DNA of 41,036 nt from a virus. A program made the position numbers and the translations under genes. Under the pieces are notes generated by a model. The model was not told the origin of the DNA and did no database searches. It saw nothing but the letters and a program-made list of their open reading frames with translations. The DNA is taken from positions 1-41,036 of the IMG/VR virus record IMGVR_UViG_3300017971_000466. The stretch is one strand, 5' to 3'. Positions 1,917 to 37,619 of this stretch are shown here, piece after piece. Every line of letters starts with the position of its first letter. Position 1 is the stretch's first letter.

Positions 1917-2300
1917 TCAGTCCTCCCTCGGCGGCCGGAAGCGGTGTCCGCAGTCCACGCACGCGATCACGACGGCGGCCTTCTGCGCAAGCGTGCGCGC
2001 GTCGAGGGCGACGTTCCAGCTCGCGCATCTCGGGCAGCAGGCCGGAGGTTCCGGGCGCCCGCAGGTCGGACATTGCCCCGTCGTCTTCGGCGGAAGCCGA
2101 GTAAAGGACTCCGTCGGCGGCGGTGGGTGCATCACAATCCGCGCGCACTCACGGCACCAGTGGACGGTGACCTTGATGCCATCCGGCAAGCGCTCCTCCG
2201 AGAAGATCAGGCCATCGCCGCCACACGAGCAGCAGTTATTCATAACCCGGATCGAGACCCCAGGGATCTTGACCGGCTCCGGGCTATCTACTCCTGCCAT
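1917..2300 (-). CDS. multi-zinc-ribbon protein (127 aa)
   Basis: The protein is built of Cys pairs: CCSC (about 23), CREC (about 49), CPTC (about 76), CCPRC (about 88) and CVDC (about 114). That is enough for two or three zinc ribbons. No enzymatic motif is present. It lies 3 bp downstream of the integrase gene, at the head of a run of Cys-rich genes that ends at the attP region. A nucleic-acid or protein-binding adaptor role is possible but inferred only from the zinc fingers. Confidence 0.75.
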   Translation of the reverse strand: MAGVDSPEPVKIPGVSIRVMNNCCSCGGDGLIFSEERLPDGIKVTVHWCRECARIVMHPPPPTESFTRLPPKTTGQCPTCGRPEPPACCPRCASWNVALDARTLAQKAAVVIACVDCGHRFRPPRED

Positions 2301-2303
2301 GCC

Positions 2304-3476
2304 TCAGTCCTCCACCGGGCGCGGGCGGGGCACGTCCACCAGGGCCTCACCCGCGAGCTTGACGTAGCGCTTCGTCGTCTTCGAGTGGTCAGCGTGGCCC
2401 AGGTAGAACCCGACCTTCTCGATGTCGACACCCCGGCCGGCGGCGCTGGTCGCGAAGCAGTGGCGGAGGGCCTCGTTCGGCTTGAACCAGAGGCCGGTGG
2501 CCGCCATCGCCGCGCGCACCACCCGGCGGGCCGCGGCCGGCGTCCACCGCTTGTCCGCGTTCTGGGCGTCGGGGTTCGGGAAAAGGGGCCGGGCCGGCGC
2601 CGCAGCGTCCCGAAGGCGGGCCGGTCGCTCCACCTGGTCGTGGATCCACCGCGCGACCTCGCCGTCCGCCGGCAGATACCGGACCCGGCCGCCTTTCCCG
2701 TGGACCGTGAGGACGTCACGCTCGAAGTCGTAGTCCCGGACGTTCGCCCGGATCGCCTCGCTGGGCCGGAGGCCCATGTAGCCGCGCGCCAGGAACGCTC
2801 CCCTCTTCTCCCAGGGGATCGCCGCCAGGAGGCGATCCTGCGCCTCGGGGGTGGGGATTCTGGGCGCGTGCTCGGGGATCTGGACCTCGGGCAGCTCGGC
2901 CACCACTTCGAGGTCGCCGCGCTTTCGAAGCCAGCGCAGGCAGGTCCCGACGTCGGCCACCAGGTGGTGGACCGAGCCCGGGGAGAGCTGCTTCTCGTCG
3001 AAGAGCCAGTCGCGCCAGTCCTCCAGCACGCCGTAGTTGATCGCCTGAATCGGCAGGTCGAGCAGGGGGTCGAGGTGGCCGCGGCGCTCGTGGCCGCGCA
3101 GCTCGTCGATCCGCTTCTCGGAGAGCTGGCGGCGGCGGTCGTCGCGGCCCTGGCGGGCCTTGGCCGCGCAGAATCGTCTGTAGTGGCGCCGGAGGAGCAT
3201 CTCCGGGGCGCCCGTCGGCAGGAAGTCGGCGATGGCCTGTAGCTCGCTCAGGCCGTTCCGGATGTCGGCCCTGATCTCCTCCAGGGCCTCGCGCGCCTGG
3301 GCCTCGTCGCGGAAGAGGACCCGCTTGCCGCTCTTCGTCTGGTAGCCCCGCAGCCGGTAGCGCGTGCCCCCGATCCGGCAGTAGATCAGGGGGTAGACCT
3401 TGCCCCCGCGACCCTTCTCCAGCTCGACGCTGCCGAAGCCCCTCGCCACCTCCCTCAGATACCACGACCGGCGCAT
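2304..3476 (-). CDS. int: tyrosine recombinase (phage integrase), 390 aa
   Basis: This is a full-length lambda-type integrase. Residues 1-80 carry the arm/AP2-like N-terminal part, about 85-190 the SAM-like core-binding domain and about 205-380 the catalytic domain. Catalytic residues visible are R237 (MGLRPSE), K261 in the beta-hairpin (HGKGGR), R338 (LRHCFAT), H361 (LGHADH) and the nucleophile Y371 (KRYVKL). The HxxR box has Glu (E335) where His or Lys is usual. I chose the ATG at 3476 because the longer open frame upstream is an Arg/Pro-rich shadow. Unlike its neighbours, the gene is separated from the upstream gene by a 35-bp gap that contains a copy of the operator motif, suggesting its own control. 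It would integrate the phage at the attP site near 1300. Confidence 0.93.
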   Translation of the reverse strand: MRRSWYLREVARGFGSVELEKGRGGKVYPLIYCRIGGTRYRLRGYQTKSGKRVLFRDEAQAREALEEIRADIRNGLSELQAIADFLPTGAPEMLLRRHYRRFCAAKARQGRDDRRRQLSEKRIDELRGHERRGHLDPLLDLPIQAINYGVLEDWRDWLFDEKQLSPGSVHHLVADVGTCLRWLRKRGDLEVVAELPEVQIPEHAPRIPTPEAQDRLLAAIPWEKRGAFLARGYMGLRPSEAIRANVRDYDFERDVLTVHGKGGRVRYLPADGEVARWIHDQVERPARLRDAAAPARPLFPNPDAQNADKRWTPAAARRVVRAAMAATGLWFKPNEALRHCFATSAAGRGVDIEKVGFYLGHADHSKTTKRYVKLAGEALVDVPRPRPVED

Positions 3477-3483
3477 CGCGTGT

Positions 3484-3497
3484 TGCGAAATTGCATG
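3484..3497 (-). promoter_or_regulatory. operator-like motif upstream of int
   Basis: On the minus strand this reads CATGCAATTTCGCA, matching the CATGCAAnnnCRCA motif found in both control-region promoters. It ends 7 bp before the integrase ATG, in the only gap around this gene. No convincing -35/-10 pair surrounds it, so binding here might block transcription entering int or hide its ribosome-binding region. Confidence 0.5.
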
Positions 3498-3511
3498 GAC
3501 GGGGGGCGCGC

Positions 3512-3955
3512 TCAAGGAGCCCTCCCCGGCGGTGCCTTGGAGGGCTTCGTCAGCTTCGCGACGGTCAGCAGGACCGGCCAGCCTCCCTCGAACTTGAAGA
3601 TGAACTTGAGGCCCTTGTGCTTCCGCCGCTCGGGGGCCGCGGCCGGCGCTTTGAGCTGGAGCGCTTCGGTCGCGACGCGGGCGAGCCAGGTGTGGAGCCC
3701 CTCGTCCTTTTGCCGATCCTGGCGCCAGATCTTGAGGCACTGAAGGGAGACGCGGTCGATCGCGTGGCCGGTGACGTCGAGTTCCGGCGTGGGTGTGCCT
3801 CTGCGCTGCATCTCGGCCAGGGCGTGCTCGGCGTGCTCGTGGCCGTTCGAGACCATCCATTTCAAGTGGCTCAGCGGAACGCTCGTGATCCGCCGGCCGC
3901 GGAAGTTCCCGTCCTTCAGCGTGAAGTGGTGGAGGTCCTGCGGAGCCGTGGTCAC
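3512..3955 (-). CDS. DUF3820/ExoX-C-like small protein (147 aa)
   Basis: The start is GTG 3955-3953, overlapping the stop of the upstream gene (GTGA); the longer frame is a shadow. Residues about 16-50 (NFRGRRITSVPLSHLKWM) resemble the short 'fold-and-Trp' module of DUF3820 and the C-terminus of exonuclease X, in which a small Gly-Lys/Arg patch precedes PLSYLxWL. In other phages this module accompanies DNA metabolism proteins. The rest is helical with a basic Ala/Pro linker near the end. The assignment rests on a short motif only. Confidence 0.6.
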   Translation of the reverse strand: MTTAPQDLHHFTLKDGNFRGRRITSVPLSHLKWMVSNGHEHAEHALAEMQRRGTPTPELDVTGHAIDRVSLQCLKIWRQDRQKDEGLHTWLARVATEALQLKAPAAAPERRKHKGLKFIFKFEGGWPVLLTVAKLTKPSKAPPGRAP

Positions 3956-4305
3956 GATCGCTTCATCTCCCGCAGGCGCCGGTCGATCTCGGCCGCGATC
4001 AGCGCGCCGGCTTTCTCCAAGCAGCGCAAACCCTCCTGGTTGTTGATCGGGCGTTCCTCCTCTTCGTGATCGCCCGGCTTCCACCAGTGCTCGTCCCAGT
4101 GTCTCGGCCAGAGCCAGTCGAAGACGGCGTGGCCGGCCTGCTCACCCAGGAGGCCCGTTGACTCGATCGCGTAGAGGGCGCCGACGGCCGCCAGATCTCC
4201 GACGTCATGCTCGTCGTCGTGGTCAGCGGTCCAGCCCTCCTCGTCGATCTGACGCTGCCGCTCCATCGCGATCCGGCCGATCCCTGTCGTGTGGTCCACC
4301 GTCAT
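3952..4305 (-). CDS. phage ERQRQI..EGW-type conserved hypothetical (117 aa)
   Basis: The protein opens with a block (IAMERQRQIDEEGWTADHDD) typical of a widespread small phage family of unknown function, followed by a helical region and a Trp-rich middle (FDWLWPRHWDEHWW). Two starts are possible: ATG 4305 (117 aa, 83-bp overlap with the upstream gene) or ATG 4266 (104 aa, 44-bp overlap). I list the longer. It ends in a GTGA overlap with the next gene. Confidence 0.7.
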   Translation of the reverse strand: MTVDHTTGIGRIAMERQRQIDEEGWTADHDDEHDVGDLAAVGALYAIESTGLLGEQAGHAVFDWLWPRHWDEHWWKPGDHEEEERPINNQEGLRCLEKAGALIAAEIDRRLREMKRS

Positions 4306-4729
4306 CCTCCCCCGGGATGTAGAAGGGCCCCGCGTCGGGGCCGTTGACGAAGAGCTTCTGGTCGTCCGGCCAGAAGCCCAGGTCGTACTGCTCAGAGCCG
4401 TCGAGGCAGTTGACCAGGACATCCTGCTCCTGGGCGCGCAGCATCACGGCCCAGACGTCCGTGTAGGTGTCGTGGCGCGCGAGGTCGTCCAGGGAGCCCT
4501 TGAAGTTCTCGTAGTCGATGCCGAGCACCGCCTCGGCGATCCTTCGCGCCGCTGCGCCCTTCTGGACGATCGTGCGATAGCGGTAGTCGGCCTTCGGAGT
4601 CTCCTCGACCTCGGCGTCTGGGAAGAGCGCCTCGATGCCGCCGCGGAACCGGCCGCGCACCACGAGCAGCTCCTCGTGGTCCCGGTGCTGCACGATTGAG
4701 AGGAAGCCCTCTCGTGCGAAGATCCACAT
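4223..4729 (-). CDS. conserved phage hypothetical (168 aa)
   Basis: The ATG at 4729 forms a TGATG junction with the upstream stop. The N-terminus is a beta-rich MWIFAREGFLSIV block followed by a conserved YRYRTIVQ segment, then IDYENFK and RHDTYTDVWAVM. This arrangement is familiar from small proteins of actinobacterial and other phages and plasmids whose function is unknown. The last 25 residues overlap the start of the next gene and may be poorly conserved. Confidence 0.7.
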   Translation of the reverse strand: MWIFAREGFLSIVQHRDHEELLVVRGRFRGGIEALFPDAEVEETPKADYRYRTIVQKGAAARRIAEAVLGIDYENFKGSLDDLARHDTYTDVWAVMLRAQEQDVLVNCLDGSEQYDLGFWPDDQKLFVNGPDAGPFYIPGEDDGGPHDRDRPDRDGAAASDRRGGLDR

Positions 4730-5241
4730 CAGGCCGCGGCCTCCTCTTCGTCCCACGGCCGGTCGGTGCGCGGCTCCGGGCCCTTCGTCCTCGGCTCCAT
4801 GTCGAGGAACTTGACCGGGACGAGAATGAGGTAGGAATCGACGCGGACTAGGCCATCCCGCGAGGGGTGCGGGTCGTGGACCATCATGCCGTCGAGGGCG
4901 ACGACGCAGCGTCCCCCGGCCCTGCCGTCGGGGAGAACGCCGCGGGGCCCTGTGCCACACTGGACCGCGTAGCCCCGCGGCGCCACCTCGTCCTCGCGAT
5001 CATCCGGGAGGCTCAGGTAGTAGCAGAGCCAGCCGCGCTCGGCGCAGAACTGCCAGAGCACCCTCCACCAGTGCGGGTCGATGCCGGCCTGGATCTGCTC
5101 CTCCGTGCGCTCGTCCTTCTCGCGGAGGATGTCCCGGAAGTTCTCAGGCTCTTCGAGCGGGATCTCCAGGATGGAGCACACCGCCGCCATCAGGCAGTTC
5201 CCCTCGCCGTAACCGAAGCGCGTCTGGTCGACCGGCTTCAT
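4729..5241 (-). CDS. papain-like/C39-like fold candidate (170 aa)
   Basis: The ATG at 5241 sits in an ATGA overlap. Near residue 15 the sequence GNCLMAAVCSILEIPLEE has the form of the catalytic-Cys helix of papain-like or C39-like phage proteins (G-N/D-C followed by a helix), and near residue 118 GMMVHDPHPS matches the block near the C-terminal acidic residue of that family. The usual His just before it appears to be Cys here (GRCVVALDG), so enzyme activity is uncertain. It would be cytoplasmic; substrate unknown. Confidence 0.55.
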   Translation of the reverse strand: MKPVDQTRFGYGEGNCLMAAVCSILEIPLEEPENFRDILREKDERTEEQIQAGIDPHWWRVLWQFCAERGWLCYYLSLPDDREDEVAPRGYAVQCGTGPRGVLPDGRAGGRCVVALDGMMVHDPHPSRDGLVRVDSYLILVPVKFLDMEPRTKGPEPRTDRPWDEEEAAA

Positions 5242-5429
5242 CGGACGTCCGCCAACTCTTCCCCGTGGACGCCCCGCATGTAGACGCCTCGGGGATCCTG
5301 GGGGATGCCGGTCTTGCCGGCCTCGCGGGCGCGGATCGCGAACTGCTCCTGGATCTCCTCCGTCACCACGACCACGTCGGGCGTGTGCGGTGCGAACTGC
5401 TCGACGTCGCTCTTCGCGAGCTGGAGCAC
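5238..5429 (-). CDS. small hypothetical protein (63 aa)
   Basis: A longer frame runs to 5534, but its first 35 residues are Arg/Pro/Gly-rich shadow of the upstream gene. The best start is GTG 5429-5427, preceded by AAGGAG with a 6-base spacer and lying 11 bp after the upstream stop. The product is helical (TEEIQEQFAIRAREAG). It ends in an ATGA overlap with the next gene. No family recognised. Confidence 0.6.
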   Translation of the reverse strand: MLQLAKSDVEQFAPHTPDVVVVTEEIQEQFAIRAREAGKTGIPQDPRGVYMRGVHGEELADVR

Positions 5430-5440
5430 GGCCAGCTCCT

Positions 5441-5794
5441 TCAGCTCGGCCTCGGTCTCTCGACCTGGTCGGCGCCGTCCCAGCCGCGGACGTGATCCGC
5501 CAGTGTGCCGACCCCGGTGTCCCGGTTCCACCATTTGGCGACATACTCCGTCCGGTACTCCATCGCCTTCTCCAGCGTCAGGTCGACGAAGATCCGCATC
5601 CCGACCGGCGGGACGAAGAAGGGCGCGTAGACGTCGTGCGGCCAGTCGACGTGCGACATCTCCACGCCGCCCCGGCTGGAGATCACGAAGGGCGTGATCC
5701 CGTCGCGCGAGTTCCAGAGGATCTCGTGCTCTTCGCCGTCCTTCGAGACGTAGTGCATCAGCTTGAAGCCTTCGGCCTGCTTCCCTTCGGTCAT
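5441..5794 (-). CDS. hypothetical protein (117 aa)
   Basis: The ATG at 5794 follows AAGGAGG with an 4-base spacer and overlaps the upstream stop (ATGA). The protein mixes beta strands and aromatic residues (WNSRDGITPFVISSRGG, SHVDWPHDVYAPFFVPP), suggesting a compact globular fold. No motif is recognised. Confidence 0.7.
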   Translation of the reverse strand: MTEGKQAEGFKLMHYVSKDGEEHEILWNSRDGITPFVISSRGGVEMSHVDWPHDVYAPFFVPPVGMRIFVDLTLEKAMEYRTEYVAKWWNRDTGVGTLADHVRGWDGADQVERPRPS

Positions 5795-6852
5795 GCTGCC
5801 CTCCTTGCTGGCACGTCCTGGCGGCGCAGGTCCCGCGGCCACTCCTCGGGGTCTGCTCCCGCTTTGTTGTGCAGGACGATCCGAACCGGAGCGCCCTGGT
5901 AGTGGGCCCGGAAGGGCGTCCAGTCGTGGTGCCGCGTGTCGTCAGGCCAGTCGGTCTCGCTTTCGCCCATGAAGCCGGCGTCGTTGCGGTCGATCACCAC
6001 GCGGCCGAGCTGCTTGACGTAGGCGTTCAGCTCTGCCTCGTCGCACTGCCCGACGATGTGGCGGACCCAGGAGACCTCGCACGGTCGCGCGCCGGCTCCC
6101 GTTTCACCGCCGACGATGACGCCGTGGATCCGCTCGTGGAGCGAGTAGCAGTCGAAGTCGGTCAAGGCGTCGAAGAGCCGCAGGTTGATCGGACCGAGCA
6201 GCGGCTCCAGGCTGAAGAAGCGGACGGCCGCGGGGACCTGGATCAGGTGCCGGGCCCGGTAGTCGTAGGTGTTCTGGTCCTCGGCCGTGACACCGATCTC
6301 GACGTTCGGCAGCGGCCAGGTGTCGATGTCCTCGACCGCCTGGGTCAGCCACGCCGGCCGGCGCCCCGGCCAGGTGTCGTGGATCCGGGCGGCCTCGTTG
6401 ATGATCCGGTTCAGGCAGTCGCTCTGGCGGCCTTTCGTGAGCCACTCGTAGAAGCGGACCATGTCCTCCGGATGCTTCGTGAGGACCTGGTAGGTGTGGC
6501 GCGGCGTGAGAGCCATCACCGCCCAGATCGGCAGGCGCCAGTGGTGCGGCACCAGCGGGTGGCAGACGTCCGTCATCGAGCCCAGGAAGATCCGCTTCCC
6601 GACCTGCCAGCGGAGCGTCTCCACGAGCCGCTCGGGGATGTAGCGGAACTGCCCGGTCCAGCGGACCCTGCCCTTCGTCATCTTCGCGAGGCCGTCGTAG
6701 ACCGAGGTCGCGTTCGGGTTGCGCCCGCGCATCAGCAGCGGGATCCGGTACGCCTGGCGCGCGGCGTAGCAATTCTTACACCCGGGCGAGGTCGCGCGGC
6801 AGCCGATGATCGGGTTCCAAGTCTCGCCGGTCCAGCCGATCTTCGTGGGCAT
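5791..6852 (-). CDS. phage Gp37/Gp68 (DUF5131) family protein (353 aa)
   Basis: This is a full-length member of the phage Gp37/Gp68 family. It opens with TKIGWTGETWNPIIGC and has a three-Cys motif, C18-x6-C25-x2-C28, followed by YA. That is the family hallmark and resembles a radical-SAM-type cluster-binding loop. Further family blocks are FLGSMTDVCH, VLTKHPEDM, EIGVTAEDQ, FFSLEPLLGPI and GVIVGGETG. The biochemical role is not established; a TIM-barrel cluster enzyme is predicted. The start MPTKIG (6852) is preferred over an ATG six codons upstream because it forms the TGATG junction seen elsewhere here. Confidence 0.85.
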   Translation of the reverse strand: MPTKIGWTGETWNPIIGCRATSPGCKNCYAARQAYRIPLLMRGRNPNATSVYDGLAKMTKGRVRWTGQFRYIPERLVETLRWQVGKRIFLGSMTDVCHPLVPHHWRLPIWAVMALTPRHTYQVLTKHPEDMVRFYEWLTKGRQSDCLNRIINEAARIHDTWPGRRPAWLTQAVEDIDTWPLPNVEIGVTAEDQNTYDYRARHLIQVPAAVRFFSLEPLLGPINLRLFDALTDFDCYSLHERIHGVIVGGETGAGARPCEVSWVRHIVGQCDEAELNAYVKQLGRVVIDRNDAGFMGESETDWPDDTRHHDWTPFRAHYQGAPVRIVLHNKAGADPEEWPRDLRRQDVPARRAA

Positions 6853-7331
6853 CAGTTCTCTCCGCTGCAACTCGGGCAGTCGCAGCCCTCTCTCTCCCCC
6901 GCTTCGAGGAGCTGGTTCTCCAGACCCTCGACCTGCTTCTCCAGTTCCCCGATCCGCTTCTGGAGCGCTTCGAGGTTCGCGTTCGCGATGTCGACCACCG
7001 TGACAGTGCAGGCGGCGGACGCCGGGGCGATGTGGTGCGTCTTCCCGCAGTTGGAGCAGACGAACTGATCGAGCTTGGCTTCGAGCACCTCGACCCGGCT
7101 GGCCTTCCGGCCCAGCTCCAGGGCCTCCGTGACCGCCCGGTGTCGATGGAGCTGCGCGAGATCCCGCTCAGCAACGGCCTCGTCGTGGAACGCCTTGGCG
7201 ATTCCGTCCATCTGCTCGGCCGTCTTGAGCTTCACTTGTAGCTCCTGGATCCAGCAATAGGGGCATCGGTCCGCGAAGCCGACGGGCACATTCGCCCCGA
7301 TCGTGTCGTGGGCGTTGCAGCTCCAGCTCAC
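6852..7331 (-). CDS. Cys-pair plus coiled-coil protein (159 aa)
   Basis: The start is GTG 7331-7329 in a GTGA overlap, with GAGGAGGG 3-4 bases upstream; the longer frame is a shadow of the ASCH gene. Cys pairs occur at CPYC (about 23), CSNC (about 92) and CDCPSC at the C-terminus. Between them are long helices (LEVLEAKLDQF; NLEALQKRIGELEKQVEGLENQ) with heptad spacing. It looks like a zinc-knobbed coiled coil; role unknown. Confidence 0.7.
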   Translation of the reverse strand: MSWSCNAHDTIGANVPVGFADRCPYCWIQELQVKLKTAEQMDGIAKAFHDEAVAERDLAQLHRHRAVTEALELGRKASRVEVLEAKLDQFVCSNCGKTHHIAPASAACTVTVVDIANANLEALQKRIGELEKQVEGLENQLLEAGEREGCDCPSCSGEN

Positions 7332-7690
7332 GCTGCCCTCCTCAGATCTGCGACGCACTCGAACTCGACGCAGTGGACTCGGACGTGGAGGTACTGCACC
7401 GGGCCGTTGTCGAGTCGGTTGATCCGACGGAAGGCTTCCAGGTACGCCTCGGGGCTCGGGTAGCCCTCGGCCAGGGCGTCGGCCGGCGAGATCTCGCCCA
7501 AGGGCTCGCGCCAGCGGCGCAGGATCGCGATCTGGCCGAAGGGCTCGCCGGGCGGGTTGCACCAGGCCGGCCGCGTGTAGCAGAGGTGGAGTGAGCCTTC
7601 CTTCACGCGCCAGCGGGACCAGAGGCGGCGGGTCTGCGTCTTGCTCCCGTCCAGGATCGGCTCGACGTGCTCGACCTGCCAGAGGAGCAT
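7328..7690 (-). CDS. ASCH (PUA-like) domain protein (120 aa)
   Basis: The sequence matches the ASCH fold: an N-terminal strand (MLLWQVEHVEPILDGSKTQTRR) with the characteristic GxKxxTRR motif, a strand-rich middle (FGQIAILRRWREPL) and the helix ISPADALAEGYPSPEAYLEAF common in ASCH proteins. ASCH domains bind RNA or modified bases, and some are nucleases or amidohydrolases; small phage versions are common. It sits in the accessory part of the early operon, overlapping its downstream neighbour by GTGA. Confidence 0.8.
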   Translation of the reverse strand: MLLWQVEHVEPILDGSKTQTRRLWSRWRVKEGSLHLCYTRPAWCNPPGEPFGQIAILRRWREPLGEISPADALAEGYPSPEAYLEAFRRINRLDNGPVQYLHVRVHCVEFECVADLRRAA

Positions 7691-8023
7691 CTACCCCTCC
7701 TCGTGTTTGAGCAGGAACTCTTCGATCTTCTCGACCGTCTCCAGCAGCGCCTCGCGCTCCGTGTTGCAGCGCTTCTCGATGGACTCGTGGCGCGCGACGT
7801 AGAAGGCTTCCTTCGTCGCCAGGTCCTCCGTCTCGTTCGGCACCGTGAAGATCTGCTTCACGAAGACGCGCACCAGTTCGGGCGCGGTGTAGTAGCCGAA
7901 CGGCATCGCGAAGACGCGGCTCACCGCCGCATGGATCACCTCCGCCGCGTGCTTCTCGGCGGCCTTCTGTGCCTGCTCGGCCTTCTCCTGGATCCGCTGC
8001 TCGATCGTCTGGACGTCTGCCAT
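7691..8023 (-). CDS. helical hypothetical protein (110 aa)
   Basis: ATG 8023 to TAG 7691, directly abutting the next gene. The N-terminal 30 residues form an Ala/Glu/Lys helix (RIQEKAEQAQKAAEKHAAEV), and the C-terminus a second helix rich in Glu. A central region has aromatic and Pro residues (FAMPFGYYTAPELVRVFV). No recognised domain. Confidence 0.7.
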   Translation of the reverse strand: MADVQTIEQRIQEKAEQAQKAAEKHAAEVIHAAVSRVFAMPFGYYTAPELVRVFVKQIFTVPNETEDLATKEAFYVARHESIEKRCNTEREALLETVEKIEEFLLKHEEG

Positions 8024-8024
8024 C

Positions 8025-8405
8025 TCACCCTCCCGCAGCCGCGGTGGCTGCTCGATGCGGCGACGTGACCAGCGAGAGCCACACCCGCTTCGGCCGCCGA
8101 TCGTTCTGCGGGATCTTGCTCGGCTTCACCCGCTCCGTCGCCAGGATCAGGCCGATCGTCGCCGCGGCGCGCATGATCGCGCCCAGCGCCCGCTTGTCTT
8201 TCGGTTGGCGCGTCGTCATCTCGGCGAGCTTCGCCTCGACCTCGTCGGTTGTGAACGCGGCTTTCTCGACGGCGACCTCGTGGACGGCCACGATCGCCAT
8301 CCGCTTCCAGAGGGCGTCGGCGCCCTGCGCGACCCGCTCGATCGCGATGTCGCGCAGGCGTGCGCCCTCCCCCGGGTTGAATAGACTCCTCTGGCTCGGC
8401 TCCAT
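8025..8405 (-). CDS. phage winged-helix-like hypothetical (126 aa)
   Basis: The protein opens with SLFNPGEGARLRDIAIERV, then a helix, then FTTDEVEAKL, ALGAIMRAAATIGLI and RPKRVWLSL at the C-terminus. This order is shared with a common phage family found next to replication genes: an N-terminal 'F.p..g..LRD.g' motif, a short winged-helix-like core and a terminal strand with Trp. DNA binding is likely but not shown. It starts 19 bases before the end of... the small gene upstream closes at 8406, so the two abut. Confidence 0.65.
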   Translation of the reverse strand: MEPSQRSLFNPGEGARLRDIAIERVAQGADALWKRMAIVAVHEVAVEKAAFTTDEVEAKLAEMTTRQPKDKRALGAIMRAAATIGLILATERVKPSKIPQNDRRPKRVWLSLVTSPHRAATAAAGG

Positions 8406-8561
8406 CTAGCCCTCCCCGTCCATCTCCTTCGATGCCTGGAGCGATGCTCCGACCATGTCCTGCGCGTAGTCGAGAGCCTCCTGGTACTCCGACACCGAGC
8501 AGTCCACGCCGCCCATCTCGTTCAGGAACCGCTCGATGATCTTCTCGAACTCAGGCCGCAT
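8406..8561 (-). CDS. small acidic helical protein (51 aa)
   Basis: This short frame fills the gap between the ATPase gene and the 8025-8405 gene. It begins at ATG 8561, overlaps the last 11 bases of the ATPase gene, and ends with TAG 8408-8406 directly before the ATG of the next gene. The peptide is amphipathic and acidic (FEKIIERFLNEMGG; YQEALDYAQDM). Position and tight packing support it; function unknown. Confidence 0.6.
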   Translation of the reverse strand: MRPEFEKIIERFLNEMGGVDCSVSEYQEALDYAQDMVGASLQASKEMDGEG

Positions 8562-10473
8562 CCTTCACCCCCTGGAGCACTCCGTCCTTGAGCCACCACA
8601 CGGCGACGTTGTCGATCGGCGGCTTCTTCGGCGCGTCCGTCCGCAGCGTTGCCAGGCCCAGGATGCCGCCCGGGTAGCTCTCGGCGCGCTGGAGCAGCGC
8701 CGGCATCACCTCGCTCTGGACCTTCGGGTTGAAAACGTCCAGCTCGTCGACGATCAGCATCGGGAAGCGGCAGAGCGTGGCGATGGCGTGCTGGATCCCG
8801 ATGCCCAGGCGCAGCAGCGCCGAGCGGGAGAGCTGCGGCACGCGCATCGTCTTCCCCGACGGCCGCTCGATCAGCAGGTCGAGGTCGCTCGTGAAGCTCA
8901 CCGTCCCGATGCCCGTGAGGGTCGTGACGTGGTTGACAAGGTCGGCGAACTCGGGCAGCAGCACCGCCAGCAGGCCGGCCTCGATCCCGCTCGGCTTGAG
9001 CGCCTGGGCGATCTTGTCCCAGGCTTCGTGATCCTCGCGGTGGACCGCGACCTGCTCCTGCTCCGCCTCCCAGGACTCTTTCGCGCTGCTGTAGTCACGC
9101 ACGGCCTGGAGGAGCTGCCGGTTCAACTCGATCCGCTGATCCAGCTCGGGGACGCTCACCTCCTCGGCGCCCTCGTTCTCCTCGATCACCTTCTCGCAGT
9201 TACGGACCTTGCCGAGGAGTTCGCGGAGCGTTGCCCGATCTCTCTCTGCTCCGTTCCGCCCCTCGACAAGATCCGCGACAGTGCTCTCCAGGCGCTCGAT
9301 CGTCGACCGCGCGACGTCCACCTCGGTCGTGAGCCGCGCGCGCTCGGGCACCATCAAGTCGATGGTCTGCTTCGCCTCGGCTGCCCTCTGGCGGATCGGT
9401 GCCAGCGCCTTCTTGATCGCGGCCTGGGTCGCCAGGCAGGGAACGCCGAAGGCCTCGCAGGTCTCCGGCTTCTTGAGGCTCGTGGCCGTGTTCGCCACGG
9501 CCTCCTCTGCTGCGATCTGCTCCGAGAGGTGTTCGATCACCTCCTCCTTCTCTGCGACCTGCACTTCGAGCCCGGTCTTCTGCTCGATCAGCGGCGCCGG
9601 GTCGTCGTGCGCGTCCTGGTCGTAGGTGGTGATCTTCGTCTCCAGCTCTTCGACCTGGGGCTTCAGTTCGGCGAGCATCCTCCGGGCTCCACCGAGGGCC
9701 TCTGCACCGCCGCGGATCGCGTTGTCGCGGCCGACGCGGAGGTTCCTGATTTGCTCCTCGACCGTGGCCTCGCTGATCTTCTCCAGGTCGATCTCGCGCT
9801 CGCCGATCGTCACGATCTGCTGCGGCTTGGGCCTCCCTCCTTCGAGGTGCCGGCCGGCCTTCTGCCGCTGCTCGACGGCGATCTTCTCGGCCGCCCGGAA
9901 GCCCTGCTCCGCGGCGACCTGGGGGATCGCCTCTAGTTCGAAGTGCTTCTCGGAGAGGGCCCGCTCGGCCATCGCCTCGCGGATCTTCTGGGTCGTCATC
10001 GAGCGGCCGAGGATCCGGAAGAGCACCGCCTTCGCGTCCTCGGGGCTCAGCTCCAGGAAGCGGAAGGAGTTCAGGACCGCGAGCATCTGCGCCTCGTCCA
10101 TCCCGAAGCAGCCGTAGATCAAGGCCTGGGCGTCCTTCAGCCCTTCCTCCGCGCCGCCGTCGTGTTGCACCACGAGCGACTGCTTGCCGGAGCGCAGCAC
10201 GGTCCGCACGATCTGGATATGGTCCTGACCGCTTCCGTGGCTGTACTGGACCGTGGCCTTCTTCTCCTCGCCCCGGATCGCGATCTCGCCGATCTCGTTC
10301 TTGTGGCGGACCCCGAAGCGGGAGAGGAGCGTCCCCGTCCAGGCGAAGCAGATGGCGTCGCGGATCGCGCTCTTGCCGGTCTCGTGATCGCCCACCACCA
10401 TCGAGAGCGCGTGGTTCAGCGGTAGCTCCAGGTGCTCGTGAACGAACCAGTTCGTCAGTGTCAGCTTCGACAT
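8551..10473 (-). CDS. Rad50/SbcC/SMC-like ATPase (640 aa)
   Basis: The architecture is that of a small Rad50/SbcC-type ATPase: Walker A at 28-35 (GDHETGKS), long coiled-coil arms (about 170-500), an ABC signature-like LSRSALLRLG at 548 and Walker B LIVDEL at 573-578, followed by an H-loop-region segment. Mid-arm, a CEAFGVPC pair (C-x6-C) sits where a zinc hook (CxxC) would be. Such proteins tether or clamp DNA ends and work with a nuclease. Here the upstream genes are a RecT-like annealing protein and a RecB-like nuclease, and no SbcD-type partner is visible. The start MSKL (10473) gives a TGATG junction; an in-frame ATG lies three codons upstream. Confidence 0.85.
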   Translation of the reverse strand: MSKLTLTNWFVHEHLELPLNHALSMVVGDHETGKSAIRDAICFAWTGTLLSRFGVRHKNEIGEIAIRGEEKKATVQYSHGSGQDHIQIVRTVLRSGKQSLVVQHDGGAEEGLKDAQALIYGCFGMDEAQMLAVLNSFRFLELSPEDAKAVLFRILGRSMTTQKIREAMAERALSEKHFELEAIPQVAAEQGFRAAEKIAVEQRQKAGRHLEGGRPKPQQIVTIGEREIDLEKISEATVEEQIRNLRVGRDNAIRGGAEALGGARRMLAELKPQVEELETKITTYDQDAHDDPAPLIEQKTGLEVQVAEKEEVIEHLSEQIAAEEAVANTATSLKKPETCEAFGVPCLATQAAIKKALAPIRQRAAEAKQTIDLMVPERARLTTEVDVARSTIERLESTVADLVEGRNGAERDRATLRELLGKVRNCEKVIEENEGAEEVSVPELDQRIELNRQLLQAVRDYSSAKESWEAEQEQVAVHREDHEAWDKIAQALKPSGIEAGLLAVLLPEFADLVNHVTTLTGIGTVSFTSDLDLLIERPSGKTMRVPQLSRSALLRLGIGIQHAIATLCRFPMLIVDELDVFNPKVQSEVMPALLQRAESYPGGILGLATLRTDAPKKPPIDNVAVWWLKDGVLQGVKDAA

Positions 10474-11519
10474 CAGAAGCACCCCTCGAAGCTCGACTGC
10501 TCCGGTTCGGCGGGGGAAGAAGTGGGGGGCTGGTCCGGCTGGCGGGAGCTACCCCCAGCCGGGTCGGCCTCGACTTCGGATCCACGGGCGCCGGGATCCG
10601 GCTCCGGAGGGCTCGACGCCCTTCCAGCCTCCCCTTCGTTGGGCACAGAACCTTTGTTGTTGCTCGCAGCCTGGGCCTTGGCTGCCGCGGACTCGGTGCC
10701 CCCGGTGACCTCGGTGCCTGACCCCAGGACCTCGGCGACCGTGCTGGAGACCTGCTCCTCGCCCGGGTCGGCGCCGATCGACTCGGGGCCCTGCTCCTTG
10801 TCGCGCAGCGCGTTGTAGGTCCCCCGCAGGTCGGCCAGTTCTTCGTTGTCGAGCTTCTCCAGCGGCTTTCCGAGGTGCTTCTCCAGGCGCTCGCGCGTGA
10901 CACCGCGACGCATGAAGCCCTCGACGATCTTCGAGAGGTTCTGCTTCGTGGAGTCGGCCGCGATCATCCGCACCCGCTCGAAGGCCGACTGCACGAACCA
11001 GTCGGGCAGGCCCGCGGTGATCGCGTTGCGCTCCGCCTTCGACGCGGAGGCCTGGATCGCCTGCATGAGCCACTGGCCCTCCAGCAGGACGATCCGCCCC
11101 TTACGCTTCTGGTACTTGGAGAGCACGAAGGGGCGCTCGAACCGGACGTTCGTCTGGAGGTCGGTGAAGACGCCGCCCAGGTGGACCCGGTCCTCGTTCT
11201 CGCTCACGATGTAGGCGCGGCTAGCCGCGTTGCCCCAGTTCCGCATCAGGATCCGAGCGAGCTGGATCGAGGGGCCGGTGACGTTGACCGAGTCGCCCTC
11301 GTCCCGGTAGGGGATGACGTAGTAGCAGCGCTCCGCGAGGCGCGGGACCATGTCTAGCTCGGCCATGGTCGCCGCCAGGATCTTCTCGTGGTCGCGCGGA
11401 CGCTGGATCGAGAAGGCGAGCATGGACTCGTGCTCAACGCGCATCACGGTCGCGCCGGCCGCGACGAGCGACTCGCCGGGGCTCATTTCCTCGGGGTGTA
11501 GGTCTGTTGCGGATGCCAT
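10473..11519 (-). CDS. RecT/Redbeta-like single-strand annealing protein (348 aa)
   Basis: Residues about 50-215 contain blocks typical of a large phage single-strand annealing protein family: CYYVIPY, VTGPSIQLARILMRNWGN and GVFTDLQTNVRFERPF, then QAIQASASKAERNAI and ALPDWF-like segments. The last 110 residues are low-complexity Pro/Gly/Ser/Glu and probably disordered. Annealing proteins pair complementary single strands produced by an exonuclease; the PD-(D/E)XK gene upstream is the probable partner, with SSB next to it. GGAG lies 6-7 bases before the ATG. The exact subfamily cannot be fixed by eye. Confidence 0.75.
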   Translation of the reverse strand: MASATDLHPEEMSPGESLVAAGATVMRVEHESMLAFSIQRPRDHEKILAATMAELDMVPRLAERCYYVIPYRDEGDSVNVTGPSIQLARILMRNWGNAASRAYIVSENEDRVHLGGVFTDLQTNVRFERPFVLSKYQKRKGRIVLLEGQWLMQAIQASASKAERNAITAGLPDWFVQSAFERVRMIAADSTKQNLSKIVEGFMRRGVTRERLEKHLGKPLEKLDNEELADLRGTYNALRDKEQGPESIGADPGEEQVSSTVAEVLGSGTEVTGGTESAAAKAQAASNNKGSVPNEGEAGRASSPPEPDPGARGSEVEADPAGGSSRQPDQPPTSSPAEPEQSSFEGCF

Positions 11520-31304: not shown

Positions 31305-32747
31305 ATGCCGGAAGTGCTCGCGAGCACGCTGTCCCGCGAGCACGCGCTCGAACTCGTCCGCATCGAGCAGGACGAGATCAAGCGGCTGCGGCGGACCTAC
31401 GAGCAGGCTCGCAAGGAGATCCTTGCCCGCCTCGTGGACACCCGGGCCGAGACGTTCACGGCCCAGCAGCTTCGATCCGTCCAGGTGCAGGTCGAGACCG
31501 GCCTGCGCGAGATGGTCAAGAAGCTCCGGGACGACACGTCCGGCCAGGTCGACTCGCTCCTGGAGCAGAGCATCGAGCAGACGCTCGCCGAGATCGGCTA
31601 CTGGGAGCGGACGTTCCGCGGGGCGGCGACGCAGCGGATCCGGGCGTCTGCGGCGCGGCGAGTGCTCAAGCCACGCGCGCTGCTGCTCCACCAGTACGAC
31701 ACCTCGATCAACGCCTACGGGCTGAACCTGATCTCCGAGGTCCAGGGTCGGCTCGGCGTCCACCTGGTCAGGAACTCCTCGTGGCGGGAGATGTCGCTCG
31801 ACATCGCCGGCCGGCTGGACACGAACGCGATCCAGGGCGCCCGCTGGCGAGCTGAGCGGATCGCCCGGACCGAGATGGTCGACGTCCTCAGCCTGGGGAA
31901 CATGACGGCGCTCGAAGAGGCCGCGGCCGATCTTCCCGGGCTCATGGGCCAGTGGGACGCGACCGTCGACAAGCGGTCGAGCTACATCTGCCTCGAACTC
32001 AACGGGCGGATCCGGCGCATCGGCGAGCCCTTCACGACCTACCGGGGCCGGCCGATCGTCAGGCCTCCGGCGATCCCGAACTGCCGGAGCCGGCTGGTCC
32101 CCTGGCATCAGGACTGGGCCGACCTGGACCCCTCGGTGAAGCCGAGGGGCGCCCCGAAGCCCGTCACACGGAAGCACCGACCGGGCCCGAAGCCGAAGCC
32201 GGCCGAGAAGAAGCCGCGCCGCCGCAAGACGAACAAGCAACGGCTCGCCGAGTCCCTGCGCCGCGAGGAGCAGGAGATCCGCAACCGCCGCACCGAGTTC
32301 GGGGTGCTCTTCGATCCCGACGGCACGGTGGTCTTGAAGAAGACGAGCCGGCAGCGGAGCTACATCAGGTTCTACGAGGACGAGCTGAGGCAGTTCAGGG
32401 GGCGGGTCTTCACTCACAACCACCCCAGCGGCAGCGCGTTTTCGATCCAAGACCTGTCCGTCGCGGCCGAATATGGCCTCGCAGAGATGCGGGTTGCTGG
32501 CTCGCGCGGCCACGCCTACTCCATCAGGCCGCGGCCCGATCGGCCGTGGTCGAAGCGGTTTTTCGACGAGGCCATCGAGCCCTCGTTTCAGCGCCACTCG
32601 AAGGAGATACAGCGCCTCAACTGGAAGCGGATCCGGACGGGCAAGCTGAGCACGAGCGACGCGAACCTGGAGCACTACCACCAGGTCTGGACCCGGGTGG
32701 CTCGTGAGGTGGGCATGGTATACTCCCGGCGGAAGGTGCCGAAATGA
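31305..32747 (+). CDS. Mu gpF-like minor head protein with JAMM-like C-terminus (480 aa)
   Basis: Residues about 1-275 are a Mu gpF/SPP1 gp7-type head morphogenesis protein: long helices, then WRAERIARTEM (181-191) and the terminal PNCRSRLVPW (258-267). A basic linker (about 285-320) joins a second domain (330-480) with E358/E360, H371-N-H373-P, S380 and D383 (FTHNHPSGSAFSIQDL), close to the JAMM metalloprotease/RadC pattern HxH-x6/7-S-xx-D, here with six spacing residues. Such extra C-terminal domains on gpF proteins are often enzymes carried into or attached to the virion. Ribosome binding is weak but the start is at the first ATG. Confidence 0.8.
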   Translation: MPEVLASTLSREHALELVRIEQDEIKRLRRTYEQARKEILARLVDTRAETFTAQQLRSVQVQVETGLREMVKKLRDDTSGQVDSLLEQSIEQTLAEIGYWERTFRGAATQRIRASAARRVLKPRALLLHQYDTSINAYGLNLISEVQGRLGVHLVRNSSWREMSLDIAGRLDTNAIQGARWRAERIARTEMVDVLSLGNMTALEEAAADLPGLMGQWDATVDKRSSYICLELNGRIRRIGEPFTTYRGRPIVRPPAIPNCRSRLVPWHQDWADLDPSVKPRGAPKPVTRKHRPGPKPKPAEKKPRRRKTNKQRLAESLRREEQEIRNRRTEFGVLFDPDGTVVLKKTSRQRSYIRFYEDELRQFRGRVFTHNHPSGSAFSIQDLSVAAEYGLAEMRVAGSRGHAYSIRPRPDRPWSKRFFDEAIEPSFQRHSKEIQRLNWKRIRTGKLSTSDANLEHYHQVWTRVAREVGMVYSRRKVPK

Positions 32748-32911
32748 CCGGAGAGCGCAGGAAGCCGGGCGCGATCCCTCCGCATCCGCCCGCCGAGGTG
32801 CCTGCCGTGAAGGACGGCGCCGTCGATCTCGACAAGGGCAGCGAGGACTGGACGCGCCAGCTCTACGGTCTTGCGCCGATCGAGACCGAGGAGGAGGAGA
32901 CCGAGAGGTGA
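32744..32911 (+). CDS. small acidic linker protein (55 aa)
   Basis: ATG 32744 overlaps the gpF stop (ATGA); the TGA overlaps the next GTG (GTGA). The peptide is Pro-rich at first, then acidic (WTRQLYGLAPIETEEEETER). It bridges the gpF and twin-arginine genes. Function unknown. Confidence 0.6.
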   Translation: MTGERRKPGAIPPHPPAEVPAVKDGAVDLDKGSEDWTRQLYGLAPIETEEEETER

Positions 32912-33381
32912 CCCGGCGCGCGTTTCTCTGGGCGCTCGCGGCCATCACCGGCTTCTTCGCCGGGCTATGGCCGAAGGCGGGCGCCGAGGCCGCGCAGTCT
33001 TCCGCGGTGGCCGCAGACGTCTCTGTCGCGTCCGGTGCCTGGGAGCGGCGCTGCGTCGTTGACTACCTGAAGGAGTCGATCGCGTCGGCGCTGGCGCCCT
33101 TGCAGTACAGGCCCTTCAGCGCCTCGCTCGTGAAGTCGACGTGCGAGGACGTGCTCGATCGGCAGGTCGCGCTCGGGTTCCTGCCGAGCCAGCAGGATCT
33201 CAACGGCGGCGGCGAGCAGCCGCAGCTCAAGCCCTATCACGTCGAGGTGGCTCCTCTCGGGGGGAGCGAGGTGCCTGGGGACGTCCGGGTCGACATCGGC
33301 CTTCGCGTCTTCCCGAGGATGGAGTGCATCGCGCTCAGGGTCGAGTGGGAAAGAGCAGAGGTGCGGCATGACCCGGCGTAG
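32908..33381 (+). CDS. twin-arginine leader fused to sheath C-terminal-like domain (157 aa)
   Basis: The first 29 residues form a Tat-type signal: TRRAFLW followed by a hydrophobic stretch (ALAAITGFFAGL) and an AxA-like cleavage region (AGAEA). Residues 45-157 align with residues 398-517 of this phage's own tail sheath: shared WxRRxxxDYL, LDxQ with LPS/IPS and DLN, LxPY, and MxxIxLRxE. Only the C-terminal sheath domain is present. GTG start in a GTGA junction. No described family with this combination is known to me. It could be exported across, or anchored in, the inner membrane. Confidence 0.75.
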   Translation: MTRRAFLWALAAITGFFAGLWPKAGAEAAQSSAVAADVSVASGAWERRCVVDYLKESIASALAPLQYRPFSASLVKSTCEDVLDRQVALGFLPSQQDLNGGGEQPQLKPYHVEVAPLGGSEVPGDVRVDIGLRVFPRMECIALRVEWERAEVRHDPA

Positions 33382-33778
33382 CTTCTTCCGGATCCTGGGC
33401 GGGCTCGTGCTCGCAGCGCTCGGGTTCTTCGCGGGGCGCAGGGTCGAGGAAGCATCTTGGCGGGCCGGTGTTATCGCGAAAACCGAGATGGTGGCCGCCG
33501 TGAACGCGGCGGAGAAGGGGCTTCTCGATCACTATCCGGTTCCGCCCCCGTGGCATCCGAACTGCCGGTGTGTGCTCAAGGAACCGGTCACCTGGTACTA
33601 CGTCTACACGACGCCGGGGCAGGGGCCGATCATCTTGCCGAAGCTGAAGGAGACGCCACTCCCCGATGGCTGGCGCTTCGAGGGTGCCTTCCATAACGAT
33701 GCCAGCCGCGACACCGTGGGCTTCGTGCGGCCCGGGAAGTTCCCCGAGTGGATCGAGTTCGAGGGGCGCATCTCGTGA
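33368..33778 (+). CDS. twin-arginine leader fused to gpF-like fragment (136 aa)
   Basis: MTRRSFFRILGGLVLAALGFF is a twin-arginine, signal-like N-terminus (TRRSFFR, then a 14-residue hydrophobic run); no clear AxA site is seen, so it may remain an anchor. Residues 31-42 (WRAGVIAKTEMV) match the gpF-like protein's WRAERIARTEMV, and HPNCRCVL matches the gpF C-terminal PNCR block; the intervening domain is missing. The rest (about 72-136) is unrecognised. It overlaps its neighbour by 14 bp and is coupled to the next gene by GTGA. Confidence 0.7.
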   Translation: MTRRSFFRILGGLVLAALGFFAGRRVEEASWRAGVIAKTEMVAAVNAAEKGLLDHYPVPPPWHPNCRCVLKEPVTWYYVYTTPGQGPIILPKLKETPLPDGWRFEGAFHNDASRDTVGFVRPGKFPEWIEFEGRIS

Positions 33779-33981
33779 GCGCCTGCTCGGTCTGCGGCGA
33801 AGACGTGCTCGAAGGAGCGCTTCGCTGCCGGCACTGCGGCGTCCCCTTCGAGGGCCCAAGCAAGCAGCCACGGCTGAAGCCATACGCGAAGGTCGGCGCA
33901 GGCCTTCGACGCACGGAAGACGGGGTCGAGGTCCAGGGCTTCGGGATCTCCTTCGGCTTCGAGCCAGACGACACCGACTAG
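33775..33981 (+). CDS. small zinc-ribbon protein (68 aa)
   Basis: GTG 33775 in a GTGA junction. Residues 4-21 carry CSVCGEDV and CRHCG, a compact zinc ribbon, followed by a Lys-rich then acidic, Gly/Phe-containing tail (GFGISFGFEPDD). It ends the coupled run that contains the two twin-arginine genes and may belong to the same unit. Confidence 0.65.
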   Translation: MSACSVCGEDVLEGALRCRHCGVPFEGPSKQPRLKPYAKVGAGLRRTEDGVEVQGFGISFGFEPDDTD

Positions 33982-34164: not shown

Positions 34165-34227
34165 ATGGGCTGCGAGCACTGCGGCGGCAAGCGCAAGAAG
34201 AAGAAGCGGCCGGGGGGTGGCCGCTAG
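34165..34227 (+). CDS. 20-aa Cys/poly-Lys micropeptide
   Basis: ATG 34165 follows GGGGAGGGG with a good spacer; the stop TAG lies 3 bp before the next gene's ATG. The peptide carries a CEHC knuckle and a KRKKKKR patch, ending Gly/Arg-rich. Such knuckle-plus-basic micropeptides occur beside phage neck genes. Evidence is the ribosome-binding site, spacing and non-random composition. Confidence 0.5.
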   Translation: MGCEHCGGKRKKKKRPGGGR

Positions 34228-34230
34228 CGT

Positions 34231-36065: not shown

Positions 36066-37619
36066 ATGGCTGGAGTCTCCACCATCCGCCGCACGAACAA
36101 CGCCGCCGAGTACATGAGCGTCGACGGTGTCGTCATCGACGAGCGCAAGCCGCCGAGCGCGATCGTCGCGAAGCCGCAGAACCGGGTGTGCGTGATCGGC
36201 GAGTTCCAGAAGGGCCCGGTGGACGTCGTCACGCGCATCGGATCGCCGCGCGAGCTTTACGACAAGTTCGGAGGCGCGGGGCCTGACGCGAGCGGCAACT
36301 TCTACAAGGGCTACCTCTCCCTGGCCCGCAAGCAGTTCGGCCGGCTCTACGTCATCCGCCTCTCGAACTCGACGCAGGCCACGGCCACGGTGGACCTCGA
36401 CGACTCGACCGTGCCGACGGCCGTGCTCCGGATCAACGCCGAGTCGCCCGGCGTTTGGGGCAACAGCCTCACGGTGACCGTGTCGGTTGCCTCGGACGGC
36501 ATCGCCACGCATTTCAACCTGACGGTGAAGTACGACGGCGAGACGGTGGAGGTCCACCGTAACCTGAACCTGGCCGACGTGAACGATGGCGAGGACCTCA
36601 CGCCCGAGTCGCTCTACATCCGGGCGGAGCGCCTCGCGATCGGCGACGGCCGGCCCGTGGACATCGCCGACGAGGCGCTCACCTCCGGCCTGGACGGCAC
36701 GTTCGCCGACGCTGACTACACGGGCAGCGGTTCGGACAGCCGCGGGATTCAGCTCCTCTACGGCTCCAGCCACAGCGACATCAAGTGGGTCTTCGTGGCC
36801 GAGAGCTACGCCGCCGCGGTCAACGGTGCGCTCCTCAACCTCTCGGCGACCACGAAGACGAAGAACTGCCTCATCATGGGCGACCCTTCGAACGACGTCG
36901 CCGCGGCGCTGACCGACGTCGCCAGCTACCGCAACGACCGCATCGGCTATTGCTACCCGCACGCCCAGATCTACCTGGCCGAGGCCAACAGCGGCCGGGG
37001 CGGCCTGGTCCAGGTCGGCCTCAACTCCTTCGCTGCCTCCGTGCTCGCGGGGCTGCCTCCGGGCTCGAACCCGGCCGGGGTCAACGGCGAGGAGTTCCTC
37101 ACCGGCATCCGTGCGCTCACGAACCAGAACCTCGGGACCGCGGACTTCGAGAGCTTCCGCGAGAAGGGGATCATGGGCTTCCAGTTCACGATGGAGCGCA
37201 ACAAGTTCTCGATCCGGTCGGGGATCAACACCGACCTCGATCCCGCGCTCCACAACTGGGCGCGGCGGAGTATGGCGGACTACCTCCAGGACAACGCCGC
37301 GGCCTACCTGGCGTTCTTGCAGGGCAAGCCCATCAGCTCGAAGAACAAGGTCATGGCGCAGGCCGCCATCGAGCGCTTCCTCGACCAGCAGATCCGGCTG
37401 GAGCATATCCCGAGCAAGCGGGATCTGAACGAGAACCGGCCCGAGGACGATCCGGTCCTGGAGCCCTATGAGATCGACATCGCCTCGCTCAACAGCCAGG
37501 CCCAGGAGGCGGAGGGCGTCTTCATCATTCTCGCTCGGGTCCGCACCTTCGCGACGATGGACTTCATCGTTCTCCGCACCGAGATCGGCGAGCGGGTCGA
37601 GGTCGAGGCCACGGCCTAG
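36066..37619 (+). CDS. contractile tail sheath protein (517 aa)
   Basis: The pattern is that of phage sheath proteins: an N-terminal TIRRTNNAAEY, then CVIGEFQKGPVD and a large variable insertion, LSLARKQFGRLYVIRLSN, and conserved C-terminal blocks WARRSMADYL, FLDQQI-IPSKRDLN, LEPYEIDIA and TMDFIVLRTE. The sheath surrounds the tube and contracts to drive it into the cell. GGAGGG lies before the ATG. Its C-terminal 120 residues are the part duplicated in the twin-arginine protein at 32908-33381. Confidence 0.9.
   Translation: MAGVSTIRRTNNAAEYMSVDGVVIDERKPPSAIVAKPQNRVCVIGEFQKGPVDVVTRIGSPRELYDKFGGAGPDASGNFYKGYLSLARKQFGRLYVIRLSNSTQATATVDLDDSTVPTAVLRINAESPGVWGNSLTVTVSVASDGIATHFNLTVKYDGETVEVHRNLNLADVNDGEDLTPESLYIRAERLAIGDGRPVDIADEALTSGLDGTFADADYTGSGSDSRGIQLLYGSSHSDIKWVFVAESYAAAVNGALLNLSATTKTKNCLIMGDPSNDVAAALTDVASYRNDRIGYCYPHAQIYLAEANSGRGGLVQVGLNSFAASVLAGLPPGSNPAGVNGEEFLTGIRALTNQNLGTADFESFREKGIMGFQFTMERNKFSIRSGINTDLDPALHNWARRSMADYLQDNAAAYLAFLQGKPISSKNKVMAQAAIERFLDQQIRLEHIPSKRDLNENRPEDDPVLEPYEIDIASLNSQAQEAEGVFIILARVRTFATMDFIVLRTEIGERVEVEATA

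Follow-up and report, generated by a model that had tools for sequence, protein, structure and literature searches.

Why would a phage place a copy of the docking domain of its own tail sheath behind what looks like an export signal? This question is raised by a short gene in a 41,036-base virus record, which we call the window. The gene lies within the late structural (head-to-tail) cluster, between the gene for the minor head protein gpF and the neck genes. The gene order in the window is terminase, portal, capsid, minor head (gpF), neck, sheath, tube and tape-measure, where the neck, tube and tape-measure assignments are by position. The phage is temperate. The features on which the argument rests are the following.

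2304-3860, minus strand: integrase-like gene (translation inspected).
31305-32747, plus strand: gpF, the first gene of the coupled run; its product is a minor head protein of the MuF type, extended at the C-terminus by a part with HNHPSG.
32744-32911, plus strand: acidic ORF of 55 aa between gpF and the fusion ORF, overlapping both (ATGA, GTGA).
32908-33381, plus strand: the fusion ORF, 157 aa with a GTG start, an export-type leader and a sheath C-terminal domain (CTD).
33368-33778, plus strand: the leader-MuF ORF, 136 aa, a twin-arginine-like leader (MTRRSFFRILGGLVLAALGFFAG) and a shortened MuF minor-head fragment.
33775-33981, plus strand: zinc-ribbon-like ORF, 68 aa, whose GTG overlaps the stop of the leader-MuF ORF.
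36066-37619, plus strand: full-length tail sheath protein, 517 aa, of which residues 385-513 match the fusion ORF.

The first issue is whether the gene is real. Five genes overlap in a run that starts at gpF and continues through the 55-aa ORF, the fusion ORF, the leader-MuF ORF and the zinc-ribbon ORF. The GTG of the fusion ORF overlaps the preceding stop as GTGA (32908-32911) and is preceded by a purine-rich GAGGAG stretch, while its 3′ end overlaps the leader-MuF ORF by 14 bases. The frame is intact and these start/stop overlaps fit translational coupling. The codon usage and GC3 (0.89) of the fusion ORF match those of the phage genes and collapse in either shifted frame, and the leader, the domain and the frame all bear the phage codon pattern, with codon-usage scores across the overlapping run somewhat lower than in the core genes. 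A sigma-70 scan recognised no promoter of the fusion ORF's own, and an Rfam search gave no matches. A chance similarity or frame artefact is rejected by these coding statistics, by the gene overlaps and by the strength of the sheath match described below. An assembly chimera is unlikely because an IMG/VR sister contig differs from the window by one base only across the common stretch, although this contig may stem from related samples and is no proof of conservation. The joining of a leader to a sheath CTD is confirmed as real, and the frame and coordinates given in a preliminary description of this DNA are correct.

Further along the same region, a 25-nt repeat (80% identity) occurs both in the zinc-ribbon ORF and in a tiny CxxC ORF at 34166-34228 (MGCEHCGGKRKKKKRPGGGR). 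About 180 bases of GC-rich DNA with no evident gene separate the two ORFs.

The fusion ORF can be divided into two parts.

32908-33000, plus strand: leader, residues 1-31, with a TRRAFL twin-arginine motif, an 18-residue uncharged h-region and, following it, AEA and AVA sites.
33001-33378, plus strand: sheath C-terminal ('platform' or gp25-like) domain, residues 32-157.

The preliminary description had related the second part to the phage's own sheath, and this homology is well supported. BLASTP aligns residues 32-152 with sheath residues 385-513 at 35% identity over 129 columns (E 4e-19), a MAFFT alignment has 46 identical pairs among 125 (37%), and the match stands 31 standard deviations above shuffled sequences (z 31). 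The accompanying estimate, that about half of the positions are identical in the best blocks, holds for the motifs named there and does not extend beyond them; by segment, identity is 38% in the helices, 32% in the strands and 55% in the C-tail. Residues 32-157 correspond to sheath residues 385-517. The homology thus starts directly after the AxA sites and extends to the sheath C-terminus, so the captured segment is a whole domain.

The fold points the same way, with more reserve. The Pfam models PF10934 and PF04965 do not match the fusion ORF at E-values up to 1, and no solved structure was found by sequence for the domain alone. An AlphaFold model of the domain, of modest confidence (pLDDT 65, pTM 0.63), contains two long helices together with three strands. 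The E-values given by Foldseek for this model are weak. The top match in VIA-align is the T4 sheath initiator gp25 (Z 8.7, rmsd 2.6, 92 aligned), next come the sheaths of P1 (Z 8.2 and 8.1) and phi812 (7.8), and lower down a T6SS baseplate chain (6gj1_D, 6.6) and the C. difficile sheath (6.5); unrelated folds reach Z 6.1 and below, which is a moderate margin. The predicted fold is therefore of the sheath-CTD/gp25 type (Z 8.7-7.8) and not an unrelated one. Because gp25 and the P1 and phi812 sheaths head the VIA-align list, we read the domain as a sheath CTD that also resembles the sheath initiator.

The leader is a separate matter: compared on its own with the phage's sheath and with shuffled sequences, it is unrelated. 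The twin-arginine leader is VTRRAFLWALAAITGFFAGLWPKAGAEA, and residues 1-31 of the ORF read VTRRAFLWALAAITGFFAGLWPKAGAEAAQS, with RR at positions 3-4. The segment RRAFL fits the default pattern of TatP, RR.[FGAVML][LITMVF] (PMC1182353). Such a match is by itself weak evidence for Tat export; among RR-bearing proteins, the pattern alone also matches 15% of the cytoplasmic and 23% of the membrane ones (PMC1182353). The h-region has a hydropathy of 1.98 (maximal 13-mer), within the range of 1.44-2.28 found in nine Tat leaders of P. aeruginosa (listed in PMC6085387). There is no lipobox cysteine, and no Cys at all in residues 1-48. Taken together, the pattern, the hydropathy range and the AEA and AVA sites agree with the earlier account of a Tat-type leader with a hydrophobic run and an AxA site, and judged from its sequence the export of the fusion protein would fit the Tat rules. 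A twin-arginine leader in the N-in orientation places the downstream domain on the periplasmic side.

A second gene with a TRR leader, on which the preliminary description is silent, lies immediately downstream. The leader-MuF ORF begins MTRRSFF, and RRSFF also fits the TatP pattern. Its leader is like that of the fusion ORF (z 4.9, a score that none of 500 shuffles reached), with a higher hydropathy (2.45) and no AxA site, and therefore an uncleaved anchor is as likely here as a signal peptide. Behind the leader the segment AGRRVEEASWRAGVIAKTEMV lines up with AGRLDTNAIQGARWRAERIARTEMV of gpF, and the MuF segments AGR..A.WRA..IA.TEMV and then the MuF motif PPPWHPNCRC can be recognised, while the greater part of the MuF domain is absent. 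The similarity is at the level of motifs: the match to a gpF has an E-value of 1e-9, the best PHROG model of MuF reaches E 0.033, and there is no Pfam match. A structure model of this ORF is too poor to inform (pLDDT 47). Among the sense-strand gene starts of the structural cassette, only these two ORFs have signal-like N-termini; the remaining rows of the scan fall in antisense frames or on codons inside the capsid and tape-measure genes. When 1,883 possible ORF starts were scanned by a stricter twin-arginine criterion, the same two leaders and one antisense shadow came out.

Could the fusion protein simply be the sheath initiator? The sister contig extends past the window and encodes the ordinary initiator within the baseplate module (PF10934, E 1e-7), so the fusion ORF is an extra copy of the sheath CTD. 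We reject the ORF as the ordinary initiator: it lies outside the baseplate module, has no Pfam match and is not similar in sequence to the phage's own PF10934 protein (E 8.7). In a related reading the hydrophobic leader is an assembly arm, not an export signal, and the fusion protein belongs to the neck or baseplate as a minor component of the virion. The ORF and its neighbours are placed between the minor head and neck genes, which suits such a component, as does the initiator-like fold. However, an ordinary initiator is already present, the leader combines twin arginines with AxA sites and an uncharged h-region in the Tat hydropathy range, and the same layout is repeated in the leader-MuF ORF. 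We consider a virion part unlikely.

The sister contig, L019, also encodes a patatin-like phospholipase in the distal region of the phage (3943-4836; PF01734, E 6e-21). Downstream of its baseplate genes, at 2107-11111, there are several genes with Sec-like signal peptides, among them a tail-fibre-like protein with an N-terminal signal (4833-6173), a PKD/thrombospondin-3 protein (8205-10388) and, on the minus strand, a protein with a PEP-CTERM-like C-terminal segment (10416-11111).

The extension of gpF opens another line of thought. This C-terminal part with its HNHPSG motif (32142-32747) has relatives in a stand-alone protein of Aphanizomenon phage CL131 and, in Dorea phage DO134P1, at the C-terminal end of a MuF-type protein. 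A short acidic ORF comes after both gpF (55 aa) and the Dorea MuF gene (46 aa). The locus might be a polymorphic toxin cassette of the MuF type, headed by gpF with its extension, in which the leader-bearing genes would encode accessory or immunity proteins. The occurrence of the extension both alone and fused to a MuF-type protein speaks for this, as does the observation that a small ORF of <150 aa usually follows MuF toxin genes (PMC5576092). Yet the positional counterpart of that small ORF is the 55-aa acidic ORF, which directly follows gpF just as the 46-aa ORF follows its Dorea counterpart, and not the fusion ORF, which is two genes on from gpF, is 157 aa long and carries a sheath domain. 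The extension is also not identified as a toxin, and we regard a toxin cassette as very improbable.

How widespread is the fusion? No relative was found among 50,697 phage records, and the only one in IMG/VR is the sister contig, which is 99.99% identical. A motif scan of GTDB genomes gave 64 stretches, none of them a sheath and none a relative of the fusion, and a scan of genome contigs with the sheath pair alignment found nothing. A sheath profile run against about 1,200 genomes (the phyla of one deltaproteobacterial, one Eisenbacteria and one Acanthopleuribacter genome, and the class of one betaproteobacterial genome) returned distant sheaths only. A short CTD paralogue is found in 0 of 26 other sheath loci, each viewed in 11-25 kb of context and including that of Alicyclobacillus phage MMB025; one of these loci has a full-length tandem sheath pair. 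The nearest distinct relative of the phage (TerL 54%, portal 37%) is a contig that ends before the gpF region. A full-text literature search on sheath and twin-arginine found no described example, in agreement with the preliminary description. The combination of leader and sheath CTD thus appears to be very rare, and unique in the collections searched. The domain may have been acquired recently from a different sheath.

In a bacterial genome (L164, 8663-12348) we observed two full-length tandem sheath genes with C-terminal parts that are 44% identical. This locus is possibly a contractile injection system.

Such rarity invites the view that the fusion is a by-product of recombination with little or no selected function, in which the 3′ end of a sheath gene and a fragment of a MuF gene came to lie behind a leader-encoding start and are open by chance or because they are young. 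The restriction to a single lineage, the absence of a short CTD paralogue from the other sheath loci and the slightly low codon scores are all consistent with this, and both adjacent genes are truncated fragments of virion genes with like leaders. On the other hand, the frame is intact with overlaps suited to translational coupling, the core motifs are retained at 37% identity, and the phage codon pattern runs through leader, domain and frame. With one lineage known no test of selection is possible, and so we hold this account, itself somewhat doubtful, to be nearly as likely as the platform model to which we now turn.

In XM1, the sheath CTD of the lower ring is a platform onto which two subunits of the ring above dock with their N- and C-terminal arms, and the sheath initiator can be superposed on the sheath CTD (PMC10457771). 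We tentatively propose that the fusion ORF encodes a 'platform-only' paralogue of the sheath which is sent to the cell envelope and, while tails are being assembled, captures arms of the sheath. As the platform and the C-tail are kept and the other sheath domains are replaced by a leader, the protein should accept arms but not extend the sheath; without the N-terminal arm and the remaining sheath parts, it would carry no further ring. At the membrane it might capture the arms of free or misplaced sheath subunits, either as a precursor before export or in an anchored form, and polymerisation away from the tube and baseplate would be limited in this way. A precedent in principle is TagA, a peripheral membrane protein that stops T6SS sheaths (PMC7545191). 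The main objection is topological: an N-in leader would put the domain in the periplasm, away from the tails, unless the protein does its work prior to export or is never exported. The 'membrane-side assembly guard' suggested in the preliminary description may be right and is close to the platform model. The leader-MuF ORF next door may act in a comparable way on a head protein. A broader version, to which we give slightly less credence, is that the two genes form a paired cassette of envelope-directed fragments of the phage's own virion, which would regulate, at the membrane, how sheath and head are assembled, or would act against related phages.

Interference was the other suggestion made earlier, as a decoy or exclusion factor. 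An exported sheath domain and MuF piece would in this case act against incoming related phages. For example, Ltp of phage TP-J34 is exported and blocks injection via a tail component, the tape measure protein (PMC3952083), and the leader-MuF ORF bears a piece of MuF, which is head-borne in other phages (PMC5576092). The fusion gene, though, is not obviously made in a lysogen, because it lies in the late structural cluster without a recognisable promoter of its own, and its product lacks a lipobox cysteine. The contractile sheath of an infecting phage remains outside the target cell. A sheath fragment in the inner membrane or periplasm would therefore not meet it, and the arms of an incoming sheath, which contracts there, are already paired. 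We find exclusion improbable, and the decoy reading is weak and disfavoured.

The accepted view of sheath CTDs and gp25-like proteins is that they serve assembly in the cytoplasm, and no report of export signals on virion domains was found. If the platform model or the paired cassette is correct, the phage would send docking domains of its virion into or through the host membrane, which would raise the question of membrane control of tail assembly, or of exclusion by virion fragments. If the pair has no function, it is a clear example of a phage shuffling leaders and domains.

It is useful to compare the locus with known systems. The fusion is like the sheath CTDs (its own and those of P1, phi812 and XM1) in sequence (37% to its own), in the predicted fold of two helices and three strands, and in the C-terminus; it differs in being a stand-alone protein with an export-type leader, without an N-terminal arm or tube-facing domains. 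The gp25, PF10934 and TssE proteins share its predicted fold (Z 8.7 for T4 gp25), and they too present a platform without themselves extending the sheath, as the fusion protein would. Unlike them, the fusion ORF has a leader, no family match, no similarity to the phage's own PF10934 protein and a place outside the baseplate module. The likeness to TagA is confined to the proposed principle, a membrane-associated protein that limits sheath growth; the two proteins are unrelated and TagA works on the cytoplasmic side. The Ltp-type exclusion lipoproteins are, like the fusion, phage-encoded and led by a signal, and the fusion could in principle also interact with a tail component. However, Ltp is a lipoprotein of the lysogeny module that is expressed from the prophage and targets the tape measure protein (PMC3952083), whereas the fusion ORF belongs to a late structural cluster and has no lipobox cysteine. 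Finally, the leader-MuF ORF differs from MuF proteins (the SPP1 gp7 family) in having an RR leader in front and lacking most of the domain, but it retains the A.WRA..IA.TEMV and PPPWHPNCR segments.
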